Shown: piece after piece, positions 3,064 to 41,925 of the stretch
How the letters are laid out: every line of letters begins with the position of its first letter
Numbering within the stretch: position 1 is the stretch's first letter
DNA from: Georgenia sp. M64
GTDB taxonomy: Bacteria; Actinomycetota; Actinomycetes; Actinomycetales; Actinomycetaceae
Length of the DNA stretch: 64,000 nucleotides
Direction of reading: 5' to 3'
Assembly: GCF_038049925.1 (NCBI RefSeq)
Contig: NZ_CP145809.1
Coordinates: forward strand, 1,798,001-1,862,000
Translations under genes and position numbers: made by a program
Notes under the pieces: generated by a model
Seen by the model: the letters and a program-made list of their open reading frames with translations, nothing else
Told to the model about the DNA's origin: nothing
Database searches by the model: none

Positions 3064-3207
3064 CCGTGCGGGCGTCGGCGTTGCCGCCCACGGCGGGCCG
3101 GAGGACAGTGGGACGGGCAGGGCCGCCACGACGGCACCCTCGCGCCCCAGCCCGAACCCACCGCACGCAGCCGGACCGGCCGCCGGACCGGCGAGAAGGG
3201 ACCTGCC

Positions 3208-3807
3208 ATGGCGTTCACGATCGGCTACTTCGTCGGGAGCCTCGCGACCGGCTCGATCAACCGCACCCTGTCCAAGGCGCTGATCCGGCTCGCTCCCGAG
3301 GAGCTCGAGTTCACCGAGATCCCCATCAAGGACCTCCCGCTGTACAGCTACGACTACGACGCCGACTTCCCGCCGGAGGGTCGGGCGCTCAAGGAGGCGA
3401 TCGAGGCCTCCGACGGGATCCTCTTCGTCTCCCCGGAGTACAACAGGTCCATCCCCGGCGCCCTCAAGAACGCCATCGACTGGGGTTCGCGGCCGTGGGG
3501 GACCAACTCGTTCGCGCGCAAGCCCACCGGCATCATCGGGGCCTCGCCCGGAGGCATCGGCACCGCGGTGATGCAGTCCTCGATGCGCAGCGTCCTGAGC
3601 TTCCTCGACGCGCCCCAGCTCAACGCCCCCGAGGCGTACATCACCTACAAGCCGGAGGTGTTCGGCGACGACGGCGAGGTGACGGATGAGCCGACGGCAC
3701 AGTTCCTGCGGCACTACATGGAGGAGTACTCCGCGTTCGTCCAGCGCGTGCTGGCCGTGACGGCGCCCGGTCACATCGGCGACGAGGACCCGACCTCGCG
3801 CAAGTGA
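3208..3807 (+). CDS. NADPH-dependent FMN reductase (flavodoxin-like quinone/chromate reductase family)
   Basis: 199 residues with the flavodoxin-like fold of the NADPH-dependent FMN reductase family. The N-terminal GSLATGSINRTLSKAL is the phosphate-binding loop for FMN, and SPEYNRSIPGALKNAIDW (about 74-91) is the family hallmark that packs on the isoalloxazine ring. SPGG near residue 113 completes the flavin site. Relatives reduce quinones, azo dyes or chromate with two electrons and protect against redox stress in the cytosol. The ATG follows AAGGGA with eight bases between. It stands alone between a small basic frame and pirin. Confidence 0.88.
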   Translation: MAFTIGYFVGSLATGSINRTLSKALIRLAPEELEFTEIPIKDLPLYSYDYDADFPPEGRALKEAIEASDGILFVSPEYNRSIPGALKNAIDWGSRPWGTNSFARKPTGIIGASPGGIGTAVMQSSMRSVLSFLDAPQLNAPEAYITYKPEVFGDDGEVTDEPTAQFLRHYMEEYSAFVQRVLAVTAPGHIGDEDPTSRK

Positions 3808-34555: not shown

Positions 34556-36861
34556 AGCCCGACGGAGCCGACCCGCCGGGCCGTCGCGGCCGTCGCGGCG
34601 CGCGCACCGGCGGCCAGGGCGGCCAGCCGGTCGACGCCGGTGACCGGCACGAGGGCGGCCCGCAGCCGGGCGCGGCGCGAGGCCACCGCCCTGACCTCGG
34701 CCAGGACGGTCTCGACGTCGGCGGTCATGGCGCCCTCACGGACCGGGCCGGGTGCGTAGCGCACGCGCTCGACCCGGTCGGTGATCCGCGCGAGCGCCTC
34801 GGCGCCGGCGCCGTGCAGCGCTGCGGCCCCGACGAGCAGCTCCCGGGAGCGTCGGGGGCTCGCACCCACGGGCACGTCGACGCCCAGGTCGCGCAACGAG
34901 GCCACGAGCAGGTGCCACCGCCCCTCGACCCGGTCCGCGTCGTCCTCGGCGCGTCGCAGCGGCGCGGTCCGTGCGCGCCGGCCGGCGAGAGGTACCAGGA
35001 GGAGGAGCGCGGCCAGCGCGACGACCACCGCGAGGGCGGGCAGGAGCAGGCCACGGACGCGGTCGGTCCAGGAGGAGGTCGTGCCCACCGTGGTGACGTC
35101 GCCGGCGTCGAGCCCCGGGGCCGTCCGGTCGGGGACCACCGGCGCGGCGGTCGAGCCCGGGACCTCGGCCGTCTCGGGTGCGTCCTGGACGAAGTACAGG
35201 GGCCGGTTGCCCGCCCGCTCGGCCGGCGTCGGCTCGAACCGGGTCCAGCCCAGGCCGGTCACGTAGAGCTCGGGCCAGGCGTGCGCGTCGGCGGCGACGA
35301 CGGTCCACGCACCGTCCTCGTCCTGCTCGCCCGGCAGGAACCCCACGGCGAGCCGGGCGGGGATGCCGCTCGCCCGGGCCATCATCACCATGGCGGTGGC
35401 GAACTGCGTGCAGTAGCCGCGACGGGTGGCCAGGAAGTGGCTCACCGGGTCGAGCTCCGCGCCGTCGGGGCCGACGACGGGGTCGGCCAGGGTGAGGCTG
35501 TAGACGAAGGCCTCGCTGCTGAGGAAGGCCTGGATGGCGGTGGCGGCGTCGACCTGGTTGGTGCTCCCGGCGGTGATCTCCCGGGCGAGGGCGGTCACGG
35601 TCTCCCGGGACGCGTCGTCGACGCCGAGGAGGTCGGGGTCGCCCAGCTCCGGCACGGTCCAGGCGCCGGTCCCGGGCGGGAGGCTGCCCACCGTCCGGTA
35701 GGACGTCGCCTCGTAGCTGGCGGGCTGGTCGGTGACGAGGGCGGTGCCGGTGGCGGCGTCCAGGCCCCACGCGATCTCCCCGACGTCGGCGGCGACGAGC
35801 GGGTGCGGCATGGCGACCTGGGGGGCGCTGAGCCGGTTGAGCAGGACGGTCATCGACCACGGTTCCGTCTCGACGCCGACGGGCAGGAGGGGCTCGGGCG
35901 GCGGCGGGTCGCCCATGCGGCGGGCACTGGGCAGCCACCGCCCGTCCTCGTACCGGCTGCTCACCGTCACCCGCAGGGGGCTCGGGCGGCTGGAGTCGGT
36001 CCGGAAGCGCAGCACCGGGGCCTCGCTGCGGGAGGTGAGGTCCTGGGCCAGGTCGAGGGTCTCGGTGAAGGTCACCGGACCCCGCGCCCCCCCGGCCGCC
36101 CGGGCCAGGCCCTCCACCACGGTCGTCGGTGGCAGGTGCGGGACGACCGCCGGGAGGACGGCAGCCAGCGCGACGGTGGCGGCGACGAGGACGCGTCCTC
36201 GCTGGGAGTAGCGCCGCCGGCTGCGCTCGACGGCGGGACCGAGCCAGACCGACGTGGTGAGCTCGTCCGTGCGGGCGGTGGACCAGCCCCGCACCGTGCC
36301 GAGCCCCTCGCGCGCGACCAGCAGCAGCCACACGACGGCGGTGGAGGCGAAGTACCACGGGTGCAGGGCGTCGCCGGTGTTCGAGGCCGTCACCGTCCCC
36401 ACCACGAGGAGCGGGACGCCGGCGAGCGCCGGCGACCGGCCGGTCACCCCGATCGCGTCCACGGCCAGCCCCACCGCGGCGAGAGCGGCGACGACGAGGA
36501 GGACCAGACCGGCCGTGGCCGGCGCCGGGACCTGCTCGTCACGGACGGTCGTGAGGCCCTCGGTCCACAGGGCCGCTGCGGCCGCGAGGGTGCGGGAGGT
36601 GGGCAGGCCGTAGAGGTGGTCGCCGGGCACCAGGAGCCAGGAGAGGACGAGCGTCGCGAGGGTCCCCTGGACCGCGAGGACGGCCGGCGCCGGCAGGCGC
36701 AGGGCCCGTGCGGCGCTGCCGGTCACGGCCACGGTCGCCAGGACGACGAGCAGCGGTCCGACCCAGGGCTGCTCGCGCAGGAGCGGGGTGACCGACCAGC
36801 TCGCCACCGCGGTCGCGAGGGCGGCGAGGAGGGCGTCGGGCCAGCGGCTGCGCTCGTTCAC
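34483..36861 (-). CDS. TgpA-like membrane transglutaminase-domain protein
   Basis: 792 residues. Six or seven membrane helices in the first 245 residues (DUF3488/TgpA N-terminus) are followed by an extracytoplasmic transglutaminase-like core with C484 in RRGYCTQFATA and H527 in ADAHAWPELYV, then WTRFEPTP. One further helix near 603-625 and a cytoplasmic tail (DUF4129-like) end it. The fold suggests a cysteine peptidase or crosslinking enzyme acting outside the membrane. The GTG overlaps the DUF58 stop. The last ~24 codons lie antisense to the DUF72 gene end, so the C-terminus is worth checking. Confidence 0.92.
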   Translation of the reverse strand: MNERSRWPDALLAALATAVASWSVTPLLREQPWVGPLLVVLATVAVTGSAARALRLPAPAVLAVQGTLATLVLSWLLVPGDHLYGLPTSRTLAAAAALWTEGLTTVRDEQVPAPATAGLVLLVVAALAAVGLAVDAIGVTGRSPALAGVPLLVVGTVTASNTGDALHPWYFASTAVVWLLLVAREGLGTVRGWSTARTDELTTSVWLGPAVERSRRRYSQRGRVLVAATVALAAVLPAVVPHLPPTTVVEGLARAAGGARGPVTFTETLDLAQDLTSRSEAPVLRFRTDSSRPSPLRVTVSSRYEDGRWLPSARRMGDPPPPEPLLPVGVETEPWSMTVLLNRLSAPQVAMPHPLVAADVGEIAWGLDAATGTALVTDQPASYEATSYRTVGSLPPGTGAWTVPELGDPDLLGVDDASRETVTALAREITAGSTNQVDAATAIQAFLSSEAFVYSLTLADPVVGPDGAELDPVSHFLATRRGYCTQFATAMVMMARASGIPARLAVGFLPGEQDEDGAWTVVAADAHAWPELYVTGLGWTRFEPTPAERAGNRPLYFVQDAPETAEVPGSTAAPVVPDRTAPGLDAGDVTTVGTTSSWTDRVRGLLLPALAVVVALAALLLLVPLAGRRARTAPLRRAEDDADRVEGRWHLLVASLRDLGVDVPVGASPRRSRELLVGAAALHGAGAEALARITDRVERVRYAPGPVREGAMTADVETVLAEVRAVASRRARLRAALVPVTGVDRLAALAAGARAATAATARRVGSVGLQPSSSSRSRPALRTALPPPSLLK

Positions 36862-38086
36862 GAGCGCACCCGCTCGCCGCGCGTGACCTCGTCCCAGGCC
36901 CGGTGGACGCTCTCGCCGTGCCGGGTGACGTGGCAGTGCCAGCCCGCCGCCCGGGCCCGCGTGGCCGCCTCCTGGGTGCGGCGGCCGGGCACGGTGGCGG
37001 AGGTGAAGGTGGCGGTGTCCAGGAGCAGCAGGAGGCCGACCCCGCCCGGTGGCCGGACGCCGACCAGGCGCGGGAGGTCCTCGCCGAGGCCGTCGGCCAC
37101 GGCCGCGACGGCCATCCCCGCCCGGGCGTGACGCGCGGCGCGCAGGACCCCGGTGAGGTCGCCGTCGTCGGCGCGGGCGAGGGCGAGGTGGCGCAGGACG
37201 GCCTGGACGGGCAGCGGCTCGCGGGCCAGGCCCTCGGCGGCGGTCCCCGCCGACGCCAGCACGAGCGAGAAACCCAGCCGGTGCAGGTGCACCGCGGCCG
37301 AGGCCAGGGCGCTGACGGCCCACTCGAAGGAGCTGTCCTCGCCGCTCCCGCGGTGGGCGGCGGGGCGCGGGTCGAGCACGAGGACGGCGCGGCGGCGGGC
37401 GTGGCGCTCCTCCTGGCGCACCATGAGCTCGCCGCGGTGGGCCGTGGCGGGCCAGTGGATGCGGCGCAGGTCGTCGCCCTCGCGGTAGGAGCGCGTGCTG
37501 GCGTCGTCCTCGCCCTGCGTCCCCACGGAGTGGGGCAGGACCCCCTCGCCGGCGACGCCGAGCCGGCGCAGGACCGCCGGGTCGAGCTCCTCCACCCGGG
37601 GGAGGACGACGACGTCGGCGGTGGCGTGCAGCTGCAGCCGCGAGGTCGTCAGGCCGAACGGGTCCTCCTGGCGCAGGCTCAGCGGGCCGACCCGGTAGCC
37701 CCCCCGGGTGGCACCGCGCACCCGGTAGGACGCCTGGTGGTGCTCGCCGGGGCGCATGTCGGGTAGGAGCAGGCGCGGGGGGCGGCCCAGCGCAGGGTCC
37801 AGGTGCTCCTCGGCGAGCTGCAGGACGGTCGAGGTCGTGCCGGTGTTGCGGATGTCGAGGTGGACGTCGGCGCTCTGCCCCGGTCGCAGCAGGGTGGGGC
37901 TCACGGTCCGGCGCACCGAGATCTGCGGCGTGCGCCGCCACCCGGCGACCAGTGCCAGGACCGGCAGCACGGCGAGCAGGGCGCCGATGCGGGTGATGTC
38001 GGGGAACCCGAGCACCATGCCGACCAGGGAGATCGTCAGTCCCGCGGCCAGGAACGACTGTCCCCGGGTCGTCAGGCGCGGGCTCC

Positions 38087-38090
<4 letters not shown>
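36858..38090 (-). CDS. DUF58-domain membrane protein (MoxR-associated)
   Basis: 410 residues. Two N-terminal helices (SFLAAGLTISLVGMVLGF and IGALLAVLPVLALVAGW), a beta-rich region, then the DUF58 core YREGDDLRRIHWPATAHRGELMVRQ (about 205-229) leading into a VWA-like fold (RAVLVLDPRP). It always travels with MoxR ATPases and transglutaminase-like proteins and is thought to be a partner in assembling or activating envelope complexes. Coupled on both sides by 4-base overlaps. Confidence 0.93.
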
Positions 38091-39067
<977 letters not shown>

Positions 39068-39116
39068 GGCCCGATCGTGCCTCATCGGCAGCCCGCACGG
39101 AAGGGATCGGGACGTC

Positions 39117-39428: not shown

Positions 39429-39899
39429 TCAGGCGGTCGGGCAGGACGTCTGGCCGACGAGCCGCTGCGTGAGGCCGAAGGCGGCGAAGGAGACGGCGAA
39501 CATCGCACCGGGCACGGCGTGCGCGGGGTTGTTCGCCAGGGTCACCACCGCGCAGACCACGCTGACGGCCGCCAGGGCGGCGCACGTCGAGCAGCCGGTG
39601 TCGACCACCCTGCCGGTGCCGGGGAGCGGGACGTACGAGGCGAGCGTGCCTGCCGCGAGGACGGCGGCCGCGAGCACGAGCGCGCTCCACGCGGGCGGGC
39701 CGTCCCACCCGCCCCCGGCGGCGGCCAGCACGACGGCGAGGACGGGCGCGGCCACGGCGGCGACGAGGAGCCGCCGGGCGGGCCACTGGTCGCGCAGGCG
39801 CGGCGCCGCGACCGGGGCGAGGGCGGGGTTCGTGGTGAGGTCCAGGCGGGTGACGACGGTGTCCTCGGTGGGCGGGACGGGGGCGGACGGGACAGCCAT
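39429..39899 (-). CDS. Four-helix membrane protein with a CSTC motif, under a CsoR-like operator
   Basis: 156 residues; I do not recognise the family. A polar N-terminus of about 42 residues (TTNPALAPVAAPRLRDQWPARR) is followed by four helices (about 44-60, 68-85, 100-118, 126-145). GCSTCAAL at the start of the third helix puts two cysteines in a CxxC pattern and a third cysteine ends the chain in QTSCPTA. Such cysteines could bind copper or carry thiol chemistry. A TATGGT -10 six bases before the ATG overlaps a G-tract palindrome, so metal- or sulfur-responsive control is likely. It diverges from the mini-protein gene at 40013. Confidence 0.8.
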   Translation of the reverse strand: MAVPSAPVPPTEDTVVTRLDLTTNPALAPVAAPRLRDQWPARRLLVAAVAAPVLAVVLAAAGGGWDGPPAWSALVLAAAVLAAGTLASYVPLPGTGRVVDTGCSTCAALAAVSVVCAVVTLANNPAHAVPGAMFAVSFAAFGLTQRLVGQTSCPTA

Positions 39900-39905
39900 G
39901 ACCGC

Positions 39906-39911
39906 ACCATA
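39906..39911 (-). promoter_or_regulatory. -10 element (TATGGT) of the CSTC membrane gene
   Basis: TATGGT on the minus strand, six bases before the ATG at 39899. Its TAT is the end of the palindrome at 39909-39924, so a bound repressor would block it. Confidence 0.6.
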
Positions 39912-39924
39912 CCCCATGGGGTAT
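39909..39924. promoter_or_regulatory. CsoR/CstR-type operator 1
   Basis: ATACCCC-AT-GGGGTAT, a perfect 16-bp palindrome. The A/T-flanked C4/G4 tracts are the hallmark of operators of the CsoR/RcnR/FrmR/CstR family. Same arms as operator 2, 49 bases away. Confidence 0.75.
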
Positions 39925-39957
39925 ACGTCACTCCGCCTCGCGTAGGCTGGACACCAC

Positions 39958-39973
39958 ATACCCCCTGGGGTAT
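39958..39973. promoter_or_regulatory. CsoR/CstR-type operator 2
   Basis: ATACCCC-CT-GGGGTAT, perfect arms identical to operator 1. Its final TAT starts TATAAA (39971-39976), the likely -10 for the mini-protein gene. Confidence 0.75.
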
Positions 39974-39976
39974 AAA
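39971..39976 (+). promoter_or_regulatory. Probable -10 (TATAAA) of the cysteine-rich mini-protein gene
   Basis: TATAAA begins in the last three bases of operator 2, mirroring how TATGGT begins in operator 1. It would leave a ~30-base leader with a GAGGAG ribosome site. An alternative is TAGGCT at 39943-39948, between the operators. Confidence 0.45.
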
Positions 39977-40012
39977 AGTTCGGTACCCGTTCCTGAGACC
40001 GAGGAGAGAACC

Positions 40013-40129
40013 ATGTGCAGTCCCGCTCGATGCAACAGCTGTGGCAAGATCACCTGGACCGGCTGCGGCATGCACGTCGACCAGGTCTTCGCGGGCGTTC
40101 CCACGGAGCAGCGCTGCACCTGCCGCTGA
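40013..40129 (+). CDS. Cysteine-rich mini-protein (38 aa)
   Basis: 38 residues with six cysteines (2, 7, 10, 18, 34, 36) and one histidine (21). The core is CNSCGKITWTGCGMHVDQV, and the end QRCTCR. It resembles very short CxxCGKxTWxGCGxHV proteins I recall from many actinobacteria and fungi, of unknown function; the pattern suggests zinc, copper or persulfide binding. GAGGAG lies six bases before the ATG. It diverges from the CSTC membrane gene and both promoters carry the same G-tract palindrome. Too short for routine gene finders and easily missed. Confidence 0.8.
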   Translation: MCSPARCNSCGKITWTGCGMHVDQVFAGVPTEQRCTCR

Positions 40130-40260: not shown

Positions 40261-41925
40261 TCAGCGGCGGGGCCGGTTCAGCAGGGCGTCCACGAAGACG
40301 GTGCCGATGTCCTCCGGGTCCTGGGCGAGGTAGCTCCGCCCGCCGGTCTGGGCGGAGATGACCCGCAGCTCGGTCTCGTCGGTGCCCGGTCCCATGCCCA
40401 CCGTGATGACCGGTACGGGCCGGTCCGGGTCGCCGGCCGCCTGGAGCTCGGCGAGGAGCTGGTCGAAGCTGATCCCGTCGTCGTCCTCGTTCTTGCCGTC
40501 GGTGAGCAGCACCACCGAGTTGACGAAGCCCGGCTCGTAGCTGTCCTGGACCGTGCGGTACGCCGCGAGCACCGTGTCGTAGAGGCCGGTGTCCCCGTCG
40601 GCGCGGCCGGGCAGGGACTGCGCCGCCGCCAGCAGGGCGTCACGGTGGGTCCCGTCGCCGGCGGGGGAGTCGATCCGGGCGACCGGGACGAGCTCGGTCC
40701 AGTCACGACCCTCGCCGTGGTCGGTCGAGAAGGCCCACAGGCCCACCTGGGAGGTCGGCGGGAACTGCTGCATCGCCACCTGGGCGGCGCCGGCCGCGAG
40801 CTCGATGCGGGACCGCCCGCCCGCGTCGTCGAGCATCGAGCCGGAGATGTCGATGACGGCGAGCATGCGCATGTCCACCGCGACGGTGCGCCACGACGCC
40901 AGGGCCGTCTCGACGGCTCCCGCGGTGGGATCGGGCCTCGGCTCGGTGTCCTCGGGGACGCCCGGCACACCGGGGGAGCCCCCACCGTCGGCGTCGCGGA
41001 AGCCGGCCGCGGCGAGCGCGGCGCGCCCGCCGGGGCCGGTCAGGGCCTCCTCGAGCGCCGCCACGGCGGGTTCGGGTGCCGCGGCGACCCGGACGAAGGG
41101 GAACGCGAACGACCCGGTCCCCTCGGCGGGGACGACGGCGACCAGCGGGGCGCCCGGGTTGTCCGCGAGGTGGCGGAAGAGCCGCTGCTCGCTGGCGGGG
41201 AAGGCGACGGCGTCGGGGGAGTCCGCCCGGTCGAACAGCTCGTCCTCCGTCGTCTCCTGCCGCGAGAGTACGATGGTCGCGCGGCCCAGGGCCTGCTCGC
41301 CCTCGGGCGTGCCGCCGAGCACCTCCCCGGCGCTGACCAGGGCGAGGAGGGAGGCGGTGGACTCCTCGGGATCGGCCATGAGCAGGTCCACCCCGCCGGT
41401 GAGGAACGTCTGCCAGGGCTGGGCCCCGCCGAGCTCCTCGGTCATCGCGCGCGGCAGCGCGATCACGACCGGGCTGGTCGCCAGGACCGGCCCCACCTCG
41501 AGCGCCTCGCCACGCGCGGCCGCGGTGCGCTCAGCCCAGACCGGTGAGTCCGGCACCCACACGTGCGGACCGGTGGCCGTGGCGACGGTGAGCTGCGCGG
41601 CCGTCTCCGCGGCGGGCGCCGCCGTGACCGCGTAGGTCGCGCAGGCCTCCTCCTCGATCTCAGCCGCCACCTCCGCCAGGACCGGTGCCAGGTCGGGCGT
41701 CGTGGTCACCCTCACCTCGGCGGGCTCCTCGCAGGGGGTTGCCGTGGCCGTGGCGGGCGCCGAGGTGGTGGCTGCCTGGCCGCCCGCCCTGTCCCGGCCG
41801 GCGGGCTCGTCGGCGCGCGGCCAGTTCGCCCAGGCGATGCCGCCCAGGACCACGAGCAGAGCGACGAGCGCGGTGGGTGCCACCCACCACAGCCCGCTGC
41901 GCCGCGAGTCGTCGTGCCGACCCAT
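40261..41925 (-). CDS. Membrane-anchored substrate-binding / VWA chimera
   Basis: 554 residues. One N-terminal helix (LWWVAPTALVALLVVLGGIAWA, about 12-33), then a Thr/Ala-rich spacer. Next is a type-II periplasmic-binding-like region (about 65-330, VRVTTTPDLAPVLAEVA to FRDADG). A von Willebrand A domain ends the chain, with the MIDAS DISGSM at 359-364 and VVLLTDGKNEDDDG. The binding domain faces outside. It might capture a ligand and present it to a partner through the metal site. Similar architectures occur in other actinobacteria; function unknown. TAGGTT seven bases before the ATG suggests a leaderless transcript. Confidence 0.9.
   Translation of the reverse strand: MGRHDDSRRSGLWWVAPTALVALLVVLGGIAWANWPRADEPAGRDRAGGQAATTSAPATATATPCEEPAEVRVTTTPDLAPVLAEVAAEIEEEACATYAVTAAPAAETAAQLTVATATGPHVWVPDSPVWAERTAAARGEALEVGPVLATSPVVIALPRAMTEELGGAQPWQTFLTGGVDLLMADPEESTASLLALVSAGEVLGGTPEGEQALGRATIVLSRQETTEDELFDRADSPDAVAFPASEQRLFRHLADNPGAPLVAVVPAEGTGSFAFPFVRVAAAPEPAVAALEEALTGPGGRAALAAAGFRDADGGGSPGVPGVPEDTEPRPDPTAGAVETALASWRTVAVDMRMLAVIDISGSMLDDAGGRSRIELAAGAAQVAMQQFPPTSQVGLWAFSTDHGEGRDWTELVPVARIDSPAGDGTHRDALLAAAQSLPGRADGDTGLYDTVLAAYRTVQDSYEPGFVNSVVLLTDGKNEDDDGISFDQLLAELQAAGDPDRPVPVITVGMGPGTDETELRVISAQTGGRSYLAQDPEDIGTVFVDALLNRPRR

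Follow-up and report, generated by a model that had tools for sequence, protein, structure and literature searches.

Among the described systems closest to the locus presented here is the ScCsoR (SCO0620) circuit of Streptomyces coelicolor. ScCsoR is a CsoR-like repressor that senses sulfane sulfur via Cys37 and Cys66, two cysteines 29 apart, and its reaction with polysulfide leads to release from DNA (PMC7533328). Its binding site is the 16-bp ATACC-n6-GGTAT, which occurs twice in the Scpdo promoter (PMC7533328). According to the portion of the report accessible to us, the circuit consists of four genes, the targets being rhodanese, persulfide dioxygenase and sulfite exporter, with neither a mini-protein nor a CxxC membrane protein among them (PMC7533328). 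The same portion describes the site as highly similar to those of the copper sensors Geobacillus CsoR and RicR, so that the signal cannot be told from the site by itself (PMC7533328). The CstR and YrkD regulons of Staphylococcus aureus and Bacillus licheniformis are controlled by homologous two-cysteine relatives of CsoR, which repress sulfane-sulfur genes and are released by sulfane sulfur (PMC9918477). The Bacillus cluster, as given in the available part of the source, includes DsrE, TusA, rhodanese, PDO, TauE, thioredoxin, SQR and NreBC and no mini-protein of the kind described below; it also belongs to a different phylum (PMC9918477). CsoR-family metal sensors place a histidine at the metal-binding place in the region of repressor position 60 (PMC5016687). 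Within Actinomycetota, the RicR/MymT system, in the source material available, provides a small Cys-rich protein under a CsoR-family repressor with a similar operator (MymT being likened here by description alone), but its signal is copper.

The locus in question lies in the window, by which we mean the whole 64,000-nucleotide stretch of the Georgenia sp. M64 genome (G000; one contig, 4.18 Mb) that was analyzed. It consists of two divergent genes, one for a 38-residue mini-protein and one for a predicted four-helix membrane protein, with two palindromic operators between them. The locus shares with the ScCsoR circuit the 16-bp site and the placement of two sites in one promoter region; the genome also encodes a CstR-type protein with two cysteines 29 apart, and the same kinds of target genes carry the site. 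Unlike the ScCsoR circuit, as far as it is set out in the available text, G000 has sites at a distant divergent pair and at thioredoxin and SQR-like genes. A preliminary description regarded the pair as a separate and undescribed two-part response for metal or sulfur handling. The regulator idea behind this description holds, but the label of metal or sulfur handling is not specific enough: both the repressors linked to the site and the neighboring genes are of the sulfane-sulfur (CstR) kind. Instead of a separate response, the operator match, the CstR-type gene, the co-occurrence of genes and the upstream-site counts suggest that the two proteins are undescribed members of the known CstR persulfide regulon. 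What is new are the proteins themselves: neither has a curated Pfam or NCBIfam family, and no description of either was found in the literature searched, a search with most subscription papers outside its scope.

Two operators between divergent genes

Features of the locus are listed in Table 1. The palindromes, ATACCCC-N2-GGGGTAT, have identical arms, lie 49 bases apart and are located inside the divergent intergenic stretch, as had been described, and both match the ScCsoR consensus exactly, in line with their earlier assignment as CsoR/CstR-type operators. With up to two mismatches allowed, these are the only two sites in the window. Shuffled controls (n=100) contained 0.01 sites on average and one at most, and two sites were found in 0/100 of them.

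Table 1. Features of the divergent locus (positions in the window)
Feature	Position	Strand	Remarks
Operator 1, ATACCCCATGGGGTAT	39909..39924	none	CstR-type site; exact; fits ATACC-n6-GGTAT
Operator 2, ATACCCCCTGGGGTAT	39958..39973	none	CstR-type site; exact; lies in the spacer and reaches halfway into the -10
CSTC four-helix membrane-protein gene	39429..39899	-	156 aa from ATG at 39899
Mini-protein gene	40013..40129	+	38 residues
Probable -10 of membrane-protein gene, TATGGT	39906..39911	-	six bases 5' of ATG; sequence reading
Probable -35 of mini-protein gene, TGGACA	39948..39953	+	sequence reading; kept in congener G006
Probable -10 of mini-protein gene, TATAAA	39971..39976	+	sequence reading; kept in congener G006
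Probable ribosome-binding site of mini-protein gene, GAGGAG	40001..40006	+	sequence reading

Read by eye, the mini-protein gene has a promoter-like stretch TGGACA-N17-TATAAA on the + strand. Since 17 bases separate its two hexamers, operator 2 would take up the greater part of the spacer and extend halfway into the -10. For the membrane-protein gene, the same reading of the - strand gave no good -35, and its transcript is perhaps leaderless. A promoter scan returned 0 sites and thus reported neither predicted promoter; its rule accepts only T as the sixth base of the -10, and TATAAA ends in A. In the congener G006, all 28 of 28 bases of the palindrome arms are unchanged, versus 8 differences in the 33 bases between the palindromes (counted by eye), and the mini-protein coding sequence carries one synonymous change in 117 bases. 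The genes flanking the pair (window 36858-39085 and 40261-41925) encode a MoxR-type ATPase, a DUF58 protein and a solute-binding/VWA protein; a link to sulfur is not evident in any of them.

CsoR-family repressors and operator sites in the Georgenia genome

The sensor gene had been expected elsewhere in the genome, and G000 indeed contains five CsoR-family genes. Three of the five have the C-x24-H-x3-C copper-sensor pattern. Another, C1:3400775-3400957, keeps the first cysteine and has tyrosine and alanine at the other two places. The gene C1:439711-439971 is the sole one encoding two cysteines and no metal-binding histidine (C35-S60-C64), i.e., a protein of the CstR type. Its relatives among solved chains carry the names CsoR, InrS, FrmR and putative cytosolic protein. 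An operator-type site is found 32 bases before its ATG, and its neighbors are rhodanese, CoA-disulfide-reductase-like, thioredoxin and DUF302-like genes. None of the other four CsoR-family genes has a.TACC-N6-GGTA. site within 1.5 kb. The shared site points to the CstR-type protein, rather than another CsoR, as the putative ligand of both window sites, with 1.4 Mb between its gene and that of the mini-protein.

The further sites anticipated in the preliminary description are present. A whole-genome scan with up to two mismatches recovered 15 distinct sites, compared to one for the reversed pattern. The best sites precede rhodanese and CoA-disulfide-reductase-like, thioredoxin, CstR-type and SQR-like genes. 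Also among the best are those upstream of a group of rhodanese, persulfide-dioxygenase-like and TauE-like genes, and of a rhodanese-lipoprotein gene. The enzyme names are our reading of the translations, compared with annotated relatives. Several weaker sites, which fall inside long reading frames, are probably due to chance.

Three of the individual sites deserve separate mention. In the case of the rhodanese-like lipoprotein (G000:C1:1470513-1471067, L013), the CstR-type site at 1470946-1470961 is positioned before the likely start, which suggests an extracytoplasmic arm of the regulon. A one-mismatch site, G000:C1:1661231-1661246, precedes a small frame (L014, around 3190-3250) whose product we take to resemble membrane proteins of the SHOCT type. 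Because Knoellia has a frame like it behind its CstR gene (L053 7438-7779), the L014 frame is possibly another regulon member. The third site, G000:C1:1437799-1437814 (L012), also with one mismatch, precedes or coincides with the start of a frame that by eye looks CBS-domain-like, a possible further target.

Mini-protein genes follow the CstR regulon

Conservation of the palindrome upstream of homologous genes was predicted earlier and is borne out. For 62 of the 113 mini genes, which corresponds to 60 of 110 distinct proteins, an operator is present within 200 bp upstream, versus 45 of 3422 control tiles from the same loci. The reversed motif was found at 0/113 mini genes and in 3/3422 tiles. 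The set of 113 corresponds to 115 mini genes less two with fewer than 150 bases upstream; 7 of 116 loci without a pattern-matching mini gene had been dropped, and L038 and L138 represent one genome entered twice. Site and mini gene are conserved across actinobacteria, and in genomes of other actinobacterial classes the site can overlap the mini start codon, as in L205 and L207 (direct reading) and in G353 and G406 (coordinates).

Gene neighborhoods give a similar picture. In 39 of 80 loci, genes of the sulfane-sulfur cluster (CstR, rhodanese, PDO, CoADR, SQR, DUF302) are found within 5 kb of the mini gene, compared to 0 of 40 control stretches drawn from relatives in other genomes. The 80 loci are the best-scoring 80 of at least 562 relatives and are thus biased towards window-like forms. 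Either a site or a cluster gene is present in 70/80 loci and neither in 10/80. Near the mini genes of these loci, tblastn located 29 CsoR-family places, all of which (29/29) lack the histidine. A copper-type CsoR query produced 21 matches, every one overlapping the 29 His-less places. Among 150 mini genes listed, 58 are no more than 500 bp away from a CstR-type gene, some being directly adjacent to it, and for 84 the distance is at most 5 kb.

The association extends to genome content. In 248 genomes of the order, the mini gene and a CstR-type gene occur together in 106, the mini gene only in 15, the CstR-type gene only in 17 and neither in 110, which corresponds to an odds ratio of about 46 when genomes are treated as independent. 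Here, a gene counts as CstR-type if it matches a profile built from 11 such proteins at E <= 1e-17; absence of the histidine was verified in the 29 places near mini genes and in G000. For the mini gene and the exact operator, the respective counts are 96 (both), 25 (mini only), 16 (operator only) and 111 (neither). The exact operator is present in 112/248 order genomes versus 3/248 for the reversed pattern. The 15 of 121 mini-bearing genomes without a CstR-type gene at the threshold used, and the 25 of 121 without an exact operator, count against a strict link. All these statistics treat genomes as independent even though they are related; results within the genus and across the phylum guard against this non-independence. 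Of the nine genus genomes, six contain a CstR-type gene and all six have the mini-protein; G004, G005 and G008, which lack the CstR-type gene, have neither the mini-protein nor the membrane protein. In the phylum sample, the exact operator is found in 13 of 20 mini-bearing genomes versus 43 of 178 others (p = 3e-4), a weaker link than in the order; the reversed pattern is present in 10/198 of these genomes, versus 56/198 for the true one.

The mini-protein family

The mini-protein has the pattern MC-x4-C-x2-CGK-x-T-W-x-GCG-x-H-x13-C-x-C over its 38 residues. The first four cysteines (2, 7, 10 and 18) are where they had been reported; the last two are at 35 and 37 rather than at 34 and 36. Twelve of the 38 positions are invariant in an alignment of 56 sequences, namely, M1, C2, C7, C10, G11, K12, W15, G17, C18, G19, H21 and C35, and these include the putative ligands C2, C7, C10, C18, H21 and C35. 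The remaining cysteine, C37, is exchanged for G37-H38 in 32 of 112 distinct proteins, and either C37 or H38 is retained in 108/112, as expected if position 37/38 is a metal ligand. Thus, the protein displays three C/H pairs and C2, together with a conserved W/K/G surface. Metal binding is suggested by these residues. The family contains short forms of about 38 residues and long forms, mostly of 50-60 residues; 42 of 50 long forms fit a loose hydrophobic-basic tail pattern (e.g., GFFARLFGR).

At least 562 relatives were confirmed in the genome collection. The mini-protein is found in 36 of 59 kin genomes, 121 of 248 genomes of the order and 20 of 198 genomes sampled across the phylum, and also on 77 plasmid records and four viral contigs (L213-L216). 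It is often missed by gene annotation: 35 of the 40 plasmid matches listed have no listed gene beneath them, the gene table being incomplete. One annotated example, a 'hypothetical protein' with an operator upstream, is encoded by plasmid pRHL3 of Rhodococcus jostii RHA1 (L027 4001-4171, RHA1_RS51140) in a cluster with genes for an MBL-fold hydrolase, thioredoxin, rhodanese and a metal-sensitive-regulator-type protein. Six loci (L028, L033, L063, L093, L094, L108) have two mini genes each, one short and one of the longer form, with starts about 100-210 bases apart in five of the six. Georgenia thermotolerans NBRC 104148 (L038) and G002, from the genus of the window, have the same mini-protein sequence. 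Records L073 and L090, from outside the actinobacteria, are possible contaminations; the proteins of L088 and L090 differ by one residue.

The window mini-protein has no Pfam or NCBIfam match at E <= 1. Other members match weakly to two families, YyzF/CxxH_BA5709 and RNA polymerase subunit N, both of which have short zinc-binding-type C/H pairs. In Pfam, RNA_pol_N is matched by 6/56 members (best E 0.0059) and YyzF by 2/56 (best E 0.026); in NCBIfam, the same two families are found with best E values of 0.017 and 0.013. Further weak matches are to HMA, a zinc finger and LipB. Membership in the YyzF or RNA_pol_N family was rejected, given that the window protein matches neither. The fold model is fair only (pLDDT 82, pTM 0.48). 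Among solved structures, no fold match was obtained at E <= 0.001 and no convincing relative by sequence.

The membrane protein

In the membrane protein, the CSTC motif (C103, C106) lies close to where the third helix begins, and a further cysteine, C153, is found near the end. It has no Pfam or NCBIfam match at E <= 1, and AlphaFold predicts four helices with low confidence (pLDDT 61). Thiol oxidoreductases of the DsbB/VKOR-like kind are four-helix bundles which carry, besides CxxC, another pair of cysteines. For the membrane protein, four helices (in a poor model), the CxxC and one further conserved cysteine were observed, and no Pfam match was obtained.

The two genes occur as a pair in other genomes too, but the pair is not the basic unit, because the mini-protein (36/59 kin genomes) is more widespread than the membrane protein (10/59 at E <= 0.01, some matches being weak). 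Eight of the nine matches at E <= 1e-10 in the 59 genomes, that of the window included, adjoin a mini gene, the exception being G037. Knoellia (L053) and Isoptericola (L070) provide further cases of a membrane-protein gene next to a mini gene. In G001, G002, both copies of G003, G016, G047, L053 and L070, the two genes have the same orientation, with the membrane-protein gene 3' of the mini gene. In L038, L053, L143, L145 and L146, the pair is close to genes of the rhodanese, thioredoxin, DUF302 or CstR type; none of these was seen near the pair in L142. Given these arrangements, the divergent layout of the window appears to have arisen by rearrangement of a part of the cluster, with the operators being kept.

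In L053, L143, L144 and L150, the membrane protein is fused in frame to an N-terminal stretch (around SLCTLSRxG...KYxEG), which starts close to where the mini gene ends; the frame of the stretch overlaps or abuts that end. This stretch is in a different frame in L146 and is absent in L070, L142 and the window copy. Four aligned membrane proteins conserve TLA-x-Y-x-P, G-C-x2-C and the last cysteine.

Proposed function and alternative explanations

Membership of both genes in the CstR regulon is, in our view, very likely. We also consider it probable, with appreciably less confidence, that the locus as a whole is an outlying branch of this regulon, i.e., a persulfide-induced pair in which the mini-protein handles sulfur through metal-held thiols and the membrane protein is its companion. 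At low sulfane sulfur, the CstR-type repressor (C1:439711-439971) would sit on both operators and mask the -10 boxes of the two genes. A rise in persulfides or polysulfides would lead to modification of C35 and C64 of the repressor, which would then leave the DNA. Both proteins would then be made together with those encoded behind the other sites, that is, rhodaneses and persulfide-dioxygenase-like, CoA-disulfide-reductase-like, sulfide:quinone-reductase-like and thioredoxin proteins. The mini-protein would fold around a metal held by its C/H pairs. C/H motifs of this type are familiar from zinc sites, and the metal is probably zinc. Its reactive cysteines may accept sulfane sulfur and either transport it to a partner or buffer it on the partner's behalf; such a sulfur-carrier role is our best guess, although we would not put it at even chances. 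The membrane protein would be a less common CxxC companion, perhaps acting in membrane thiol redox or in passing sulfur on.

Could the pair respond to copper or another metal instead? A CsoR/RicR-type sensor would then drive a metallothionein-like mini-protein and a membrane metal carrier, much as RicR drives MymT in mycobacteria. The small Cys-rich protein behind a CsoR-family site agrees with this scenario, as do the three CsoR-type genes with the metal-binding histidine in G000. RicR itself is Cu(I)-responsive, as stated in the accessible part of PMC5016687, and the likeness of its site and that of Geobacillus CsoR to the 16-bp site (PMC7533328) fits as well. However, no operator-type site lies within 1.5 kb of the genes for the Cys-His-Cys repressors, all 29 CsoR-family places near mini genes are His-less, and the genes next to the mini genes are those of sulfane-sulfur metabolism. 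Moreover, invariant G11, K12, W15, G17 and G19, none of them Cys or His, are unlike what a plain metallothionein would have. A CsoR/RicR copper regulon is thus considered unlikely, and we give the copper reading very little weight; a stand-alone response to any metal is unlikely. The absence of the histidine and of sites near the other four genes makes a formaldehyde regulon unlikely too. In FrmR, Pro2, Cys35 and His60 play the respective roles, according to the available portion of PMC5016687; the CstR-type repressor has E2 and S60, which speaks against an FrmR regulon.

The main rival to the sulfur-carrier role concerns the mini-protein itself, which might act in feedback on CstR. As an anti-repressor or reset factor, it would bind the repressor or remove its persulfides, and its metal site would be structural only. 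The close spacing of many mini and CstR-type genes, including adjacent ones (58 of the 150 listed within 500 bp), the tight co-distribution in the order (106/15/17/110) and a possible binding surface formed by invariant W15, K12 and the glycines would all suit such a partner. Yet shared regulation would explain the linkage too, 15 of the 121 mini-bearing genomes do without a CstR-type gene, and in G000 the two genes are far apart (1.4 Mb). We consider the feedback role unlikely, albeit more credible than the copper response. Alternatively, the matches to RNA_pol_N and YyzF could be taken to suggest a zinc-finger-like factor with a role in transcription or translation during sulfur stress; every one of these is weak, the window protein has neither and no fold match supports the idea, which leaves it highly improbable. 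That the 38-codon frame is not a gene, the membrane protein alone being regulated, is hardly tenable. The frame is very short and plasmid copies often lack a listed gene in the incomplete gene table, but the protein sequence is conserved across the phylum, the frame has its own promoter-like stretch and ribosome-binding site, it differs from the congener by a synonymous change only, and 62 of 113 homologues have the operator upstream.

A broader version of the sulfur-handling reading is more tentative still than the carrier role. In this version, the mini-protein would be the first member of a new microprotein family that binds metal and handles sulfane sulfur, an overlooked core part of the persulfide response of Actinomycetota. 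Its members may carry sulfane sulfur or reset CstR, one metal ligand having been swapped between Cys and His in evolution and some members having a hydrophobic-basic tail at the C terminus; the CxxC membrane companion would pass sulfur or electrons across the membrane.

Implications

CstR-type regulons have been described as a handful of enzymes, namely, rhodanese, dioxygenase, SQR and exporter. A protein of 38-60 residues tracks the CstR-type gene across 248 genomes with the strength given above, yet no Pfam or NCBIfam model fits it. This suggests that sulfane-sulfur homeostasis has a small-protein component which has been missed.
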